A stretch of DNA of 40,788 nt from Calditrichota bacterium (GTDB taxonomy: Bacteria > Electryoneota > B3-LCP): assembly GCA_020051775.1 (NCBI GenBank), contig JAGVQJ010000036.1:1-40788 (forward strand), in the 5' to 3' direction. The position numbers were made by a program, and so were the translations under genes. Positions 3,771 through 26,305 of the stretch are shown in pieces. The notes beneath the pieces are model-generated. The model was not told where the DNA came from and did no database searches. It saw only the letters and a list, made by a program, of their open reading frames with translations. Numbering within the stretch: position 1 is the first letter of the stretch; each line of letters begins with the position of its first letter.

Positions 3771-4397
3771 GATTTGGGGCTATGGTCTGGGGGCTAGGGA
3801 CTAGTGAAATGTGGGCGCGATAATTCGCGGCCTAATCGAGCGAAAATTCGCGGAATAGGCGAAAAGTCGCGAGCCACGGACTGATTTATTCATCCCCCCG
3901 TCCCCCCTTGACAATGGGGGTGATTCACGGGTCAATGGAGGATGAACATCCCTTAGAGGGATGAATTTCAGTACCCCCCAGCGAAGGCCTGGTGCCCCAC
4001 AGCTCAGCTGTGGGTTCATCATTAAACAGATCCCCCCGCCCTCCTTCTGCCTCGGAGTACCCAGGTGGGAAATAAGGGGGGGATTGTTCGATCCGACAAC
4101 TGATGGATCGATTGCATGAGGGGGAGGGGCGTTCTTTTCCGGGAGTATTCCCGTGCGGACCGCTACGCGGAAAACCCCCGGCTATTCACGTTCGACTCCT
4201 TCGGAGTCGGTTTAAATCAGCGAAATCCGTTTAATCCGCGGAAATCTGTGATTCAGACAAGAGTAATACTGAACTTCTGTCGGAGTCAGGCCCCGTAGGG
4301 GCGACTACGCCGGGCGATCTCGACTACGGGTCATGCTTCGTCGCTTCGCGCCAGAAGCATGCCACCCCCTCGACAACCTTACCAACCACCAACCACC
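3771..4397. other. gene-free stretch with clustered palindromes
   Basis: No convincing gene is present in these roughly 630 bases. They hold a patchwork of short inverted repeats: a 19-base palindrome at 3996-4014 (cccacagct/agctgtggg), a 7-bp stem at 4193-4209 (cgactcc/ggagtcg), and gcccc-gta-ggggc at 4290-4302. There are also three spaced near-copies of an a-rich word ending tcgcg between 3820 and 3875, a ggggctatgg/ggggctaggg word right after the nrdR stop, and an accaaccacc run before the terminator. A forward open frame at 4116-4298 has a composition dictated by these elements and is not credible. Confidence 0.6.
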
Positions 4398-4430
4398 AAA
4401 AAGAGCGACCCTTTCGGATCGCCCTTTTTT
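4398..4430 (-). terminator. intrinsic terminator of the VCBS-repeat protein gene
   Basis: Read on the minus strand this is a 9-bp stem (gggcgatcc with gggtcgctc) closed by a GAAA tetraloop and followed by five U. Two of its pairs are G-U on the minus strand but would be A-C mismatches on the plus strand, so it is built to work for the leftward gene that stops at 4450. Confidence 0.85.
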
Positions 4431-4449
4431 CGCAGCTCGTAGCTCGAAG

Positions 4450-6411
4450 CTATTTAACTAATATCATCTTCCCTGTGGCCGTTAACTTCCCCGCCTCGAG
4501 GCGATAGAGGTAAATCCCCGAGGGCTGATTCGATCCATCGAACGTCACTTCGTGTGTCCCAGCCTCTCGCCAGCCATCCACTAATTTCGCTACTATCCTC
4601 CCGGCAGTATCATACACTCGTAAACTGACCTGACTTGCGGCTTGCAGCTTGAAGCTGATCGCTGTAGAGGGATTGAATGGATTGGGAGATAACGAAGTTA
4701 TGAGTGATGAATTATGAGTTATGAGTAGTGGTTCGGCTTCGTTGAATTCCTCCCCAGTATTCGTCCATTCGCTGAATCCAGAATCCTGAATCCCGTTTCC
4801 CGCCTTGGTGAAAACGAAGGCTCCGCTGCTCCATTTTGTGTTAACGTTCGCACCTGCGAAGGTGACGTAATTATATACTCCGCCCGGCGCAGAGGCAGGG
4901 ACAGTTTGCGTACGCACGCGGGAGATACTGGATCCGCCCGGCAGAGTAATCCCGGTAGGCCCTGTCACCGGGCCATACTCGGATCCATCAGGCAGAATAA
5001 CCATATTCCACGCTTGGAATGTCGCCGCCGTGGCATCATGATTGGTGATCTGCACGCTGTAGCTGAAGGACCCACCGCTGGAGGGAATACTGATGGGCGG
5101 GTTCTGCGGAGTCAGCATCACGGTCACATTGGGGTGACCCGAAACATGCAAGTCCTCATATATCCAACTCGGTGTGGCGTACCAGCCGTAATATTCCGTC
5201 CCCATCCACAAGATTTCGTCGTAACTGTTTAGATTGGCATCCATGGACTTCACGCCTACGCGAATCGAAGGCGCCGATGTGAGTAACTGCTCTTCGGCAT
5301 AAGCCTGCCCATTCCAACCATAGGCGCGCAAGACGTTCAATCCCCTCATAGCGAATTCATCGCGTCCATCATTGTCGAAATCTCCGGTGGCGCCGTAGGT
5401 CCCGCCATAAGATCCATCCTGGAAGGAGACTTGACCTTGCAGTGTGAAACTGCCATTTTCGGCTTCGTAGATCAAGGCAGTCCAACCATTTTGTGAACCC
5501 GATCCGAGACAGACAATTTCGGAAAGACCATTGCCACCCATGTCCTCGGCGGCGAGACACTGGAACATATTCGGCACTTGCGTAGCCTGATAATAAACCT
5601 GCACCAGTGAATCGTTACCCGCCGACTCGTAGACCCAGAAGTCGCCGCCGATGTTGGTCACAGCGATTTCCATCAGGCCGTCGCCGTCGAAATCATCAAT
5701 GGCGTGCGTGCCCAGCGGCGAACCGGGTAATTGGACCTCGAATACCTGTTGAAACTGATTGTTGCCGGTATTCTCATAGACGGTAAGATGATTGTCCGAT
5801 CCCAGGGAATTGCGCGAATGGATAATTTCCCTCAGGCCGTCTTGATCCAAATCAGCGATGGAGGTAGCACCCAGAACGTTGGGGATCTGAGGCGATTGCC
5901 AAACCATTTGCGTGGCAAATTGCCCGATTGAGGGTGATTCCCACACCTGAATAGTATAGGCAATTTGTCCCACGACCTCGTTCAAACCGTCTCCATCGGC
6001 GTCGCCGCACACCTGGGGATAGAGCAGCGCACCGGTTTGCCAAACCTGGTAAAAGCCGTTGAATCCGTTGGTCTCAAACGTGCGCGTGGTGTAACCACCT
6101 GTGGCGTTGGCCAGGATCGTGATCTCCATCAGGCTGTCGCCATCGGCGTCACCGAACGCCATCTCATAGTTGCCCGCTGTTATCGTCGAACCGATGGCTT
6201 TCAGATTCACCACGTCCGTGGGCGGTGCGATCCAGGACTGGCCCGGGATGATAAAGGCACGCGCATCATTAGGTTGAACCGGAAAACCCAGCGGATCCAG
6301 GATGGGGAGGGGCCAGGTGTCCGTCGCGTCGGGCGAGGCCTGGGCTGTCGCCAACTGGCACAATCCCACTGCGACAAACGCGGCAAGCTTTAAGAGAGTG
6401 GATAGCTTCAT
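4450..6411 (-). CDS. secreted FG-GAP/VCBS-repeat protein with C-terminal sorting domain
   Basis: The 653-residue protein starts with a signal peptide (MKLSTLLKLAAFVAVGLCQLATAQA) and is probably exported and attached to the surface. Residues about 70-430 form repeated beta-propeller blades with calcium-binding style motifs such as DADGDGLNEVVG, DLDQDGLREI, DFDGDGLMEIAV and DFDNDGRDEFAM. A beta-sandwich region follows (residues about 440-550). The end is a type IX-like sorting domain: LSPNPFNPSTAISFKL, SLRVYDTAGRIVAKL and a final GKMILVK. A Shine-Dalgarno aaaggag is placed well before the ATG. The linker before the sorting domain (LLITHNSSLITSL) is encoded by a ttatgag-type repeat word otherwise seen between genes (4697-4729). 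The ligand or enzymatic role is unknown. Confidence 0.85.
   Translation of the reverse strand: MKLSTLLKLAAFVAVGLCQLATAQASPDATDTWPLPILDPLGFPVQPNDARAFIIPGQSWIAPPTDVVNLKAIGSTITAGNYEMAFGDADGDSLMEITILANATGGYTTRTFETNGFNGFYQVWQTGALLYPQVCGDADGDGLNEVVGQIAYTIQVWESPSIGQFATQMVWQSPQIPNVLGATSIADLDQDGLREIIHSRNSLGSDNHLTVYENTGNNQFQQVFEVQLPGSPLGTHAIDDFDGDGLMEIAVTNIGGDFWVYESAGNDSLVQVYYQATQVPNMFQCLAAEDMGGNGLSEIVCLGSGSQNGWTALIYEAENGSFTLQGQVSFQDGSYGGTYGATGDFDNDGRDEFAMRGLNVLRAYGWNGQAYAEEQLLTSAPSIRVGVKSMDANLNSYDEILWMGTEYYGWYATPSWIYEDLHVSGHPNVTVMLTPQNPPISIPSSGGSFSYSVQITNHDATAATFQAWNMVILPDGSEYGPVTGPTGITLPGGSSISRVRTQTVPASAPGGVYNYVTFAGANVNTKWSSGAFVFTKAGNGIQDSGFSEWTNTGEEFNEAEPLLITHNSSLITSLSPNPFNPSTAISFKLQAASQVSLRVYDTAGRIVAKLVDGWREAGTHEVTFDGSNQPSGIYLYRLEAGKLTATGKMILVK
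4697..4729. repeat. ttatgag quasi-tandem word inside a coding region
   Basis: Plus-strand text of repeated (g)ttatgag/gatgaa units. The same vocabulary forms an inverted repeat in the intergenic region 23440-23515. Here it is in frame and encodes the THNSSLITS linker of the secreted protein. Confidence 0.65.
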
Positions 6412-20749: not shown

Positions 20750-20786
20750 ATTCCGTAGTCGGGGTCGCCCTTGATGCCGACACAAC

Positions 20787-23388: not shown

Positions 23389-23439
23389 TCTGCCGATTTC
23401 TTCGCTCCTCCGCTTGCTTTCCCCCCGGAAAATGATTAA

Positions 23440-23515
23440 ATTATGAGTAATGAGTTATGAGTTATGAATAAACAAAAAGAACAAACTCATAACTCAGAAT
23501 TCATAACTCATAACT
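23440..23515. repeat. inverted ttatgag word array upstream of the C25 peptidase gene
   Basis: Left arm of repeated ttatgag/taatgag units (23440-23469) and right arm of actcataac units (23483-23515). A 16-base perfect inverted match, gttatgagttatgaat, pairs 23454-23469 with 23499-23514, so the transcript leader can fold into a long A-U-rich hairpin ending 17 bases before the start codon. Confidence 0.75.
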
Positions 23516-23530
23516 TCCCCGGAGCCTTCC

Positions 23531-26305
23531 ATGCGCCGAATCTTCGCCTTGTCTTTGATCGCCCTCGCTCTCCCCGTCCTGGCTCAAGTTGACTACCACA
23601 AGACCGTTGTCACCCGCTGGTCTGGGCCGGGACAACCCCTGACCTACGATCAATATCGCGCCGCAAATCCGGAACAACTGCTGGCGTGGTCGGAAATAGG
23701 GCGGGTATCACCCGCAACCGACGAAACCGGCCCGGTGCTGGTCGTGGTCGAATCTACTTTGCAAACCCCGTTGGCGCTGGAATTGGATCGCTACATGGAC
23801 GACCTGGCCGACGCCGGGTGGGAACCGATCCTGCTCGCCTGGAGCGGTGGCACCGCCGAAAATTTGCGCACGGTGATACAGCAGTATCAGGTGAGCGATA
23901 GCATCCTCGGCGCCGTCCTCATCGGTAATCTGCCGCAGGCGTGGTATGAACTGTACGAAGACTGGGATAACGACGGCCTGCCGGATGAACCGGTCATGGT
24001 GCAATTTCCCTGCGATCTCTACTTCATGGATCTGGACGGCTCATGGTATGATGGCACTTCCAATGGCATATTAGACACTCACCTGGGACCCTGGCCGCCG
24101 GATATTTTCGTGGGGCGCCTGCACACAACAACACTGTCGGGCAACCCGGTGGAACTGATGCGCAATTACCTCGATAAAAACCACGCCTTTCGTTCCGGGC
24201 AGCTCTACTTGCCGGGTAGGGGCTTGGCCTATATAGACGACGATTGGGCGGGTGGAGCCTCGCAATGGGCTGCCGCGCTGGCTCAAGGAGTAGGGTTGGT
24301 TGATCAGGTCAGCCACCCTGATTCCACCCGTGCCAGCGATTACCTCACGCGGCTGGATGACGGCTACTACGCCTACCTGTTGGCCTCGCACTCCTGGCCG
24401 CAGGGTCATTCCATGAAGGAGCAGGGCGGTACCGTTTGGAATAATGTGCTCAACACGCAGATCACTCAGGCGGACCCTCAAGCGTTCTTTTACAATCTCT
24501 TCTGCTGCAGCGCCTCGCGTTTCTGCGAGAGCGGTTACCTCAGCGGTTGCTACCTCTTCGCCGACACCTGGGGCTTGGAGGTATTGGGCTCGGCCAAGAC
24601 CGGTTCCATGCTCTACTTCGAAGACTACTACTCCTGGATTCAGCAGGGCGAATGCCAGGGCGAAGCTTTTCGCCGCTGGTTTGGGTTGCACGGTCAGGAA
24701 CCGGGTTCGGTCATGTGGGCCATGTCCTGGTTCTATGGCATGTGCGAAATGGGCGACCCGACGCTTTTCATGAAGGTGGGCATTGAGGTTAGTCAGGTCG
24801 AAGTCGTGGATGACGGTAGCCAGGGTAGCCAGGGGGACGGCGACGGCATCCCCGACGCCGGGGAAACCATCGCCTTGAATCTGACGATCCAGAACAACGA
24901 TCCCATCCCGCATAACCGTCTATGGGTCAGGCTCTATTCAACCTCCTCCGGGATCGGCTGGCTGGAAGATTCGGTTTATGTGGGAAATTTACCGGCTCAA
25001 GGAACCGCCCAGGTCAACGGCTTCACAGCCTGGCTGTCGAACTCGAATCCCGACAGTTCCACCTTGACCGTCTCCGCCCAAATTCAGGATGATGCGCTGC
25101 ACCTATGGGGCGACACTTTCACCTTGACGGTTCGCAGTCAAAAACTGGTGTTGCAGTATTATGACCAGCAGGAAATCTCCGGAGATGGTGATCCTTACGC
25201 GGAACCGGGCGAAATATTCAACCTGAATTTTACCTACACCAACTCTGGCGGGGACGAATCCGATTCCGGGACCTTTACCCTGACCAGTTCAGGCTTGTGG
25301 ATTGATCCCCAAGATACCACCATCTCCTTTCCGCCGATTGCGCCCGGCGTGAACGGAGCACCAGCCGCGCCGCTGCGGGTTGAAATTCTCTCAGGCTGCC
25401 CCAATCCTTATAATGAGATTTTAAATGCCTCCATTTCGCAGAGTGGTCCAATCCTCAGCAGCCAATACATCATCTTCTCCGTCGGAACTGAACTTCACTG
25501 GACCGATGCGATGCTGTTGCCGACCTATCCGCTGGTACACTACCCGGTCACGAACAGTTATCAAGACCAATGGCACGTCTCGGATACCCGTTATTACTCT
25601 CCCGCTCAATCCCGAAAATGCGGCAGCGCCGACATCGGCCCATACGCTCCCCAGGCTGACGGCGCGTTGGAGACGCCGCTCTTTTGGGTGGCGCAAGAAG
25701 GCCGTTTGACCTTCCAACACTGGATAGCAGCGGAAGAAGGATATGACGGCGGAATCGTGGAAATCAATTCGGGTTCGGGGTGGGAACGGCTGACGCCCGT
25801 GGGAGGTTATCCCGGCAATTCTCAGGGTAATGGTTCCTATCCCGGCGGTCCCTGTTACAACGGCCAGATGGATTGGTCGCCGGCGGAATTCGATCTGGGG
25901 GTTTACTCCGTTTTTGCCCGGCTGCGTTTCCGCTTCGCCAGCGATGTAGGCACCGAACTGGAAGGCTGGTATCTGGACGATATCACGCTGGACGGGAGCC
26001 TCATGCTGGCGGCTCCTGAGAAGCCACAAATATCGCCACCGCTTGAATTCCGGTTGTGTCAGAATCACCCCAATCCGTTCAACGCTACGACAGCGATCAG
26101 CTACAGGCTACCAGCTTCAAGCCAGGTAGATTTACGAGTGTACGATCTCACAGGAAGGCTGGTCGCTGCGTTGGTGGATGGTCGTCAGGAGGCTGGGAGC
26201 TATGAAGTCATTTTCGATGGAGGAGAACTGGCTTCGGGTTTATACTTCGTGCGGTTGCAGGTGGGGGAGTATGAGGCAGTGAAAAAGATGATGTTGTTGA
26301 AGTAG
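23531..26305 (+). CDS. secreted gingipain-like (C25/clan CD) peptidase with sorting domain
   Basis: A 924-residue exported protein. Residues 1-18 are a signal peptide. Residues about 60-410 resemble the C25 catalytic region: VLVVVESTL, SILGAVLIGNLPQAWYELYEDWDNDGLPDE, DIFVGRLHTTT, YYAYLLASHSWPQGH (probable catalytic His287) and FYNLFCCSASRFCE (probable nucleophile Cys325 or 326), closing with GDPTLFMKVG. The His-Cys spacing of about 38 fits clan CD. Two Ig-like modules follow (DGDGIPDAGETIALNL, DGDPYAEPGEIFNLNF), then a jelly-roll-like module with GWYLDDITLDG. The end is a type IX-like sorting domain: NHPNPFNATTAISYRLP, DLRVYDLTGRLVAAL and KKMMLLK. Its specificity is unknown. A ttatgag inverted repeat fills the leader. 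Confidence 0.85.
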   Translation: MRRIFALSLIALALPVLAQVDYHKTVVTRWSGPGQPLTYDQYRAANPEQLLAWSEIGRVSPATDETGPVLVVVESTLQTPLALELDRYMDDLADAGWEPILLAWSGGTAENLRTVIQQYQVSDSILGAVLIGNLPQAWYELYEDWDNDGLPDEPVMVQFPCDLYFMDLDGSWYDGTSNGILDTHLGPWPPDIFVGRLHTTTLSGNPVELMRNYLDKNHAFRSGQLYLPGRGLAYIDDDWAGGASQWAAALAQGVGLVDQVSHPDSTRASDYLTRLDDGYYAYLLASHSWPQGHSMKEQGGTVWNNVLNTQITQADPQAFFYNLFCCSASRFCESGYLSGCYLFADTWGLEVLGSAKTGSMLYFEDYYSWIQQGECQGEAFRRWFGLHGQEPGSVMWAMSWFYGMCEMGDPTLFMKVGIEVSQVEVVDDGSQGSQGDGDGIPDAGETIALNLTIQNNDPIPHNRLWVRLYSTSSGIGWLEDSVYVGNLPAQGTAQVNGFTAWLSNSNPDSSTLTVSAQIQDDALHLWGDTFTLTVRSQKLVLQYYDQQEISGDGDPYAEPGEIFNLNFTYTNSGGDESDSGTFTLTSSGLWIDPQDTTISFPPIAPGVNGAPAAPLRVEILSGCPNPYNEILNASISQSGPILSSQYIIFSVGTELHWTDAMLLPTYPLVHYPVTNSYQDQWHVSDTRYYSPAQSRKCGSADIGPYAPQADGALETPLFWVAQEGRLTFQHWIAAEEGYDGGIVEINSGSGWERLTPVGGYPGNSQGNGSYPGGPCYNGQMDWSPAEFDLGVYSVFARLRFRFASDVGTELEGWYLDDITLDGSLMLAAPEKPQISPPLEFRLCQNHPNPFNATTAISYRLPASSQVDLRVYDLTGRLVAALVDGRQEAGSYEVIFDGGELASGLYFVRLQVGEYEAVKKMMLLK

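Follow-up and report, generated by a model that had tools for sequence, protein, structure and literature searches.

The window, i.e. the whole stretch of DNA analysed here (40,788 nucleotides of a Calditrichota bacterium, contig JAGVQJ010000036.1), carries on its minus strand the gene of a 653-aa FG-GAP protein ending in a T9SS type A sorting domain. By profile search this domain runs from residue 575 and scores 37.9 bits against TIGR04183, the curated cut-off of which is 23, so that the protein belongs to that family. The features considered below are as follows.

4450..6411, minus strand: gene encoding the 653-aa protein, with FG-GAP repeats (FG-GAP_3, 76.6 bits) and, C-terminally, the T9SS type A sorting domain (TIGR04183, see above)
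4774..4797 (Tandem Repeats Finder 4774-4793), minus strand: third in-frame period-7 array, word GGATTCA, read NGIQDSGF, in a loop before the linker
4693..4725, minus strand: linker array, word TCATAAC (TTATGAG on the plus strand), read LITHNSSLITS (lag-7 segment; model pLDDT)
4633..4656, minus strand: site B array AGCTTCA AGCTGCA AGCCGCA AGT, read SFKLQAAS, in a beta-hairpin of the sorting domain
4430..4451, minus strand: period-7 array AGCTTCG AGCTACG AGCTGCG, overlapping the stop codon and extending downstream
4379..4402 (Tandem Repeats Finder 4381-4399), no strand assigned: period-7 array ACCAACC on the gene's downstream side, with no long ORF across it
23438..23516, no strand assigned: inverted pair of TTATGAG-type arrays, intergenic and hairpin-forming
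23531..26305, plus strand: neighbour gene, also ending in a T9SS sorting domain, with SYRLPASS at site B and no lag-7 array above threshold there

An initial annotation had described an array of the word TTATGAG as being translated in frame just before the sorting domain, and this is confirmed: on the minus strand the array encodes LITHNSSLITS, residues 563-573 of the protein (THNSSLITS corresponding to 4693-4719), and Tandem Repeats Finder places it at 4696-4726 with period 7 and 4.4 copies. The intergenic inverted repeat that the annotation had put at 23440-23515 is real as well, its arms (23438-23467 and 23487-23516) being 87% complementary with a 17-nt perfect core; it folds with −26.8 kcal/mol (z −8.0), and the other strand with −29.2 kcal/mol (z −6.8). 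The coding array of the linker does not fold (0 kcal/mol), and an RNA structure there was ruled out. The array at site B, which is stronger than that in the linker, had been overlooked.

In the window module as modelled by AlphaFold2 from 45 module sequences (mean pLDDT 86.6; pTM 0.49, a low value that makes the mutual placement of the two domains unsure), residues 106-117 have pLDDT <50 and cover most of LITHNSSLITS (model residues 103-113); most of the linker segment is predicted to be disordered. Site B (model residues 126-133) runs from the last residues of one strand (122-129) through a turn into the next strand (133-140), and NGIQDSGF (79-86) lies in a loop. Judging by the sorting domain that follows it, the linker peptide would be exported as protein. 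Solved relatives are weak by sequence: FlgD for the sorting domain (0.0063) and, for the domain before the linker (residues about 463-531), which is common to most paralogous modules, the biofilm matrix protein RbmA, which it resembles in its profile (4kkp, E 1.2e-06).

The window has 10 occurrences of TTATGAG where 4.1 would be expected, a count reached by 1 of 100 shuffles; since such single-word statistics in the window are too weak to decide, whole-genome counts were used. The doubled word TTATGAGTTATGAG is found 39 times in the 4.07-Mb genome, against 0 for the reversed control. TTATGAG forms 26 clusters, eight of which lie in frame in linkers of sorting modules; most of the others have no long open frame through the array. 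Outside genes, these arrays often form inverted pairs and hence potential hairpins (loci L005, L013, L019 and L024; window 23438-23516). Some non-sorting genes end inside a TTATGAG array (L024, i.e. G000:C136, near locus base 1900; L005; L008), which then supplies their last residues and stop, e.g. KKQSHNS and the stop codon in L024.

Heptanucleotide arrays across the sorting modules

The genome holds at least about 150 stretches with relatives of the C-terminal module. The sample comprised 114 stretches, which cover 148 of the about 150 listed places, and 26 further stretches; the 114 together with the window gave 139 usable modules. Two of 141 motif matches were excluded: an upstream PSPY match in L136, and a minus-strand PNPFNPTTTLSFAV row of the window, which could belong to another gene as a genuine sorting motif.

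A segment with at least 12 of 14 self-matches was scored as an array, a threshold that, like the AGYT pattern used below, was chosen after examples had been seen. In the 139 modules with their 3′ flanks, lag 7 gave 91 such segments and six other lags (4, 5, 8, 10, 11 and 13) together 3, which places the tandem 7-nt unit above chance and the arrays among heptanucleotide repeats. Site B is above the threshold in 45 of the 139 modules; by place, site B accounts for 45 lag-7 segments, the linker for 14, the upstream part for 5 and the rest of the domain for 0, while 21 more fall within 100 nt 3′ of the stop and 6 within the 200 nt beyond. In-frame period-7 arrays are thus a feature of the linker and of site B; period-7 arrays also occur just after the stop and rarely elsewhere in the module. 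Because 7 is not a multiple of three, a 7-nt periodicity in a folded, conserved domain cannot stem from protein repetition.

Lag-7 identity is 0.431 at site B against 0.336 in synonymous codon shuffles (z 17.0) and 0.271 in the linker against 0.243 (z 8.3), with 0 of 200 shuffles as high at either place; the related modules behind these figures are not independent of one another. Neither the upstream part nor the remainder of the domain shows a lag-7 excess over synonymous shuffles (z −0.2 for both). Some other lags deviate from the shuffles as well (6, 9, 11 and 12 in the rest of the domain, z 5.9-8.0; 10 at site B, z 3.2), so the shuffle test is imperfectly calibrated, yet almost only lag 7 gives arrays.

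The words at site B are tied to the residues they encode. Numbering from the P of PNPF as 0, the word classes GAG, CAG and AAG pair residues 12 and 14 as E-R (14 cases), Q-S (24) and K-Q (19), respectively, and the codons that the heptads demand are used in 12 of 14 (CGA), 19 of 24 (TCA) and 29 of 29 (CAA) cases, against 10%, 11% and 40% elsewhere in the modules. AG stands at all three phases in 59 of 139 modules, and in 52, 49 and 49 of these the preceding base matches between heptads, where the best of 10,000 shuffles reached 35-36 (of 59). Even the third base of Ala codons follows the word, with GCG in 9 cases of the G class and GCA in 8 of the A class. Words vary between paralogues, and the three heptads within one site B array tend to match.

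All this bears on an explanation at the protein level, according to which selection favoured the linker and strand peptides, and the periodicity follows as a by-product from shared ancestry, from codon usage and from the conserved pattern I-S-[YF]-x-L-x-x-x-S. The motif alone does account for the rise of lag-7 identity to its shuffled value, pattern and length of the encoded peptides are canonical, and the NNA codons at residue 14 could come from one ancestor; but the motif falls short of the identity observed, and neither the letters shared across heptads in 49-52 of 59 modules, Ala third bases included, nor the forced rare codons suit it. From the synonymous shuffles, codon choice and heptad matching, we judge a purely protein-level origin very unlikely.

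Genome-wide, the AGYT pattern was counted 160 times against 3 in the reversed control. AGYT arrays were considered as general intergenic repeats in the source genome and rejected as such, 14 of the 19 loci beyond the first modules being site B of further sorting domains (17 arrays). In distant genomes they may be general intergenic repeats; the AGYT loci of G027, G101 and G055 have no long ORF over the array (10 among the matches listed, several overlapping). Within sorting genes, to which the count of arrays 3′ of the stop was confined, period-7 arrays often begin at or just after the stop (window 4430-4451; L156, L162, L175, L181, L200 and L216).

Replacement of linker residues by repeats

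The THNS-type peptide was found in 12 of the 139 modules, in a single frame and orientation. As a sign of protein-level origin, the initial annotation had named orthologues that keep the peptide with unrelated codons; what was found is that the same heptad words write all 12 copies, and that the peptide is absent from both full-length orthologues. These were found in two family genomes at 41% identity, with linker identities of 2/21 and 5/21; neither carries an array in its linker or at site B. Six modules contain another heptad word, TCATCCT, intact or as remnants, which is read S[SA]F[IL]L.

Every THNS-type copy has either TCATCAC or a TCAGC form as its third heptad. With TCATAAC at that place the frame would run TCA TAA, and it is this in-frame TAA that the variant heptads avoid. 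The order TCATAAC, TCATAAC, TCATCAC, TCATAAC also ends a non-sorting ORF, which has its own stop inside the array (L024), and TCAGCAC is present in arrays of L011, L012 and L028, outside sorting genes. Since readable variants exist outside sorting genes too, they need not have arisen inside a gene.

The arrays replace residues at constant length. Eight of 11 measurable THNS-type copies have a linker of 19 residues, which is also the median of 92 others, and the distance from PNPF to VYD is 23 in 42 of 45 array modules and in 87 of 94 others. Insertion of the array was rejected on these grounds. The annotation's picture of a repeat that had entered a tolerant linker is therefore right in essence and too narrow. 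The same repeat does lie outside sorting genes as well as in this linker, where it is read in frame and mostly predicted to be disordered, but it replaced residues and added no piece. Nor was it a one-off entry, since other repeats occupy the same linker slot and the sorting domain itself carries arrays, with site B as the stronger case.

Further translated repeats may be at hand in other linkers: a GGTR-type peptide in four of them (L134, L146, L207 and L223), for which all four use a GGAGGGACGCGC-like DNA word, and the peptide FLKRGG, from a palindrome-like stretch in the L134 linker, look like such repeats.

Spread, descent and probable copying of the arrays

Protein search found relatives in candidate division LCP-89, in the SURF_9 MAG and in more distant phyla. 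By the same threshold, site B arrays are present in 9 of the 28 family-genome modules and in 6 of 17 named LCP-89/SURF_9 modules, two groups that overlap in organisms; none was found in 29 modules of other families of the phylum, 12 of Lake Pavin and Modern_marine MAGs or 18 of other phyla. The trait is thus seen only in the LCP-89/SURF_9 family, with 0 of 59 modules outside it. SURF_9 uses the alternative word CGGCTAC, read GYRLPAP. AGYT arrays were counted in 42 of 118 genomes, a loose figure since some genomes are equally high in the reversed control.

If the arrays of one ancestral module had simply been inherited by gene duplication, with no later DNA process, the agreement of all 12 THNS-type copies in frame, orientation and word order would be expected, as would the two L216 copies, which are identical over the array. 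Against such descent, different words occupy the same slot among paralogues and sister genomes, and on the module tree (138 of 139 modules, one being too short) the word class requires 56 changes, against a shuffled mean of 58.3 (range 52-63), as if scattered at random, although with 82 of 135 forks open this tree is weak and independent origins are inseparable from recombination on it. Linker type likewise requires 18 changes against 18.6 shuffled. One pair of modules, of L152, is 0.71-0.96 alike from position 72 to the stop and 0.88 before position 24, but only 0.58-0.67 at site B. We regard descent alone as quite unlikely.

Nine chosen pairs of modules were compared for copying, and whole sorting domains are common to genes that differ upstream of the linker, in one case including the 3′ flank. 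That case is L156/L200, alike from PNPF through the stop and the TTATGAA array after it (most 24-nt bins 0.88-1.00, the lowest 0.71, up to position 360), with an upstream likeness of only about 0.4-0.7 and the break at the linker. L207 and L208 also part at the linker, the shared side here being the upstream one, with 93% likeness.

Another reading gives the arrays a selected function as recombination joints, by which sorting domains would be swapped between secreted proteins. Arrays do flank the domain, in the linker and after the stop, and L156 and L200 share domain and 3′ flank to beyond the terminal array, with a left edge at the linker and a heptad array there in one copy. Domain homology alone could, however, drive the same exchange; the linker array is present in just 14 of 139 modules; and the nine pairs were chosen, with array-bearing and array-free linkers uncompared. 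A selected role as joints consequently appears unlikely to us.

Candidate origin of the arrays and known repeat systems

The reading that we favour, and consider somewhat more probable than its alternatives taken together, is that the linker peptide is a translated DNA-level heptanucleotide array and that, in this lineage, sorting domains serve as a sink for repeats of that kind. Copying of 7-nt units, by polymerase slippage or realignment and by ectopic conversion between paralogues, would write and homogenise the words, as their products suggest. Selection would purge copies that bring a stop, a frame shift or a broken strand pattern, and survivors would for that reason be found in the disordered linker and in turns. 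Cassette copying of whole sorting domains could then spread the arrays; the THNS-type copies, with their single frame and orientation, most likely go back to one or two original events and were spread by copying.

A bolder proposal, which we hold to be doubtful, is that an active DNA process keeps rewriting ~21 nt in many sorting-domain genes with 7-nt words that are homogenised within genes and changed between genes and species. If so, the beta-hairpin covariation E-R, Q-S and K-Q would be made by DNA mechanics and not by protein selection, and the arrays may act as joints for the shuffling of export tags.

Heptameric repeats are over-represented in bacteria and lie near stop codons, and polymerase slippage over a 7-nt segment is cited as their proposed cause in the part of the literature available to us (PMC4692102). 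The G-rich heptameric repeats of Xanthomonas and Nostoc described there resemble the present ones in their 7-nt unit, in arrays close after stops and in having several words per kind, but they are under-represented in coding regions, and the available part of that report mentions no recurrent site in one protein domain (PMC4692102). TAACTGA heptamer direct repeats are known from Beggiatoaceae, Cyanobacteria and Bacteroidetes (MacGregor 2015, PMC4679880). According to the portion of that paper at hand, they share with the heptads described here the 7-nt unit, few copies per array and a dispersed distribution, with some arrays overlapping stops and some translated, and are themselves mostly intergenic; one reverse reading, LSVISYQ, is close to the Q-type site B peptide ISYQLSVIS (PMC4679880). 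The coding copies of TAACTGA reported in the same portion are found in unrelated proteins, mostly at their ends and outside known domains, with one dominant word, whereas here many words occupy fixed places in one domain family (PMC4679880).

As far as the accessible text goes, the palindromic elements of Rickettsia and other translated small repeats are, as here, dispersed DNA repeats fused in frame; those of Rickettsia, however, are insertions of 100-150 bp that add residues, while the arrays studied here measure 21-33 nt and are length-neutral (PMC2229807). With distances and linker lengths the same with and without arrays, they do not belong to that type. The tandem repeats of Borgs are similar, in the excerpt considered, in that DNA-level repeats shape disordered parts of often extracellular proteins, but the repeats in Borg ORFs have units divisible by three and yield amino-acid repeats (PMC9879509). 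The present unit of 7 nt yields none and lies outside the Borg type.

Our searches of open-licence papers turned up no account of heptads that return at set places in a folded sorting domain, and no paper joining tandem repeats with sorting domain and candidate phylum; on T9SS together with gene conversion, one paper was listed (PMC5266723). Repeats with a 7-nt unit are already known, coding examples among them; what seems to be new is that they recur at the same places in a folded domain. On the favoured reading, a DNA process would reach into coding sequence and visibly shape the sequence of secreted proteins at their export tag, an internal signal, and DNA repeats would here account for residue covariation of the kind usually read as structural contact. 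Each genome has dozens of parallel copies and sister genomes use other words, which makes the system a natural test bed for the origin and spread of heptameric repeats in bacteria.

Besides the heptads, a palindrome of about 27 bp (GTCGGGGTC..GGGCGACCCCGACTA) is dispersed through the genome, with 24 exact sites (L312-L335) and 0 in the control. Five of the 24 exact copies fall at two loops of sorting domains, where they are translated in frame as SGSGATPT; the remaining copies are either outside ORFs of 150 codons or in frames that are doubtful. In the available part of the work on GTAG/CGTC-tagged REPs, some of which are intragenic, these are likewise short palindromes, mostly outside long ORFs and sometimes in frame; the likeness concerns palindrome and copies alone, and the in-frame copies here are all in sorting domains (PMC3733652). 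A variant of the palindrome is in frame in the linker of L189, and site B of L208 holds another palindrome. In the window, a variant copy lies outside genes at 20756-20770 on the minus strand.
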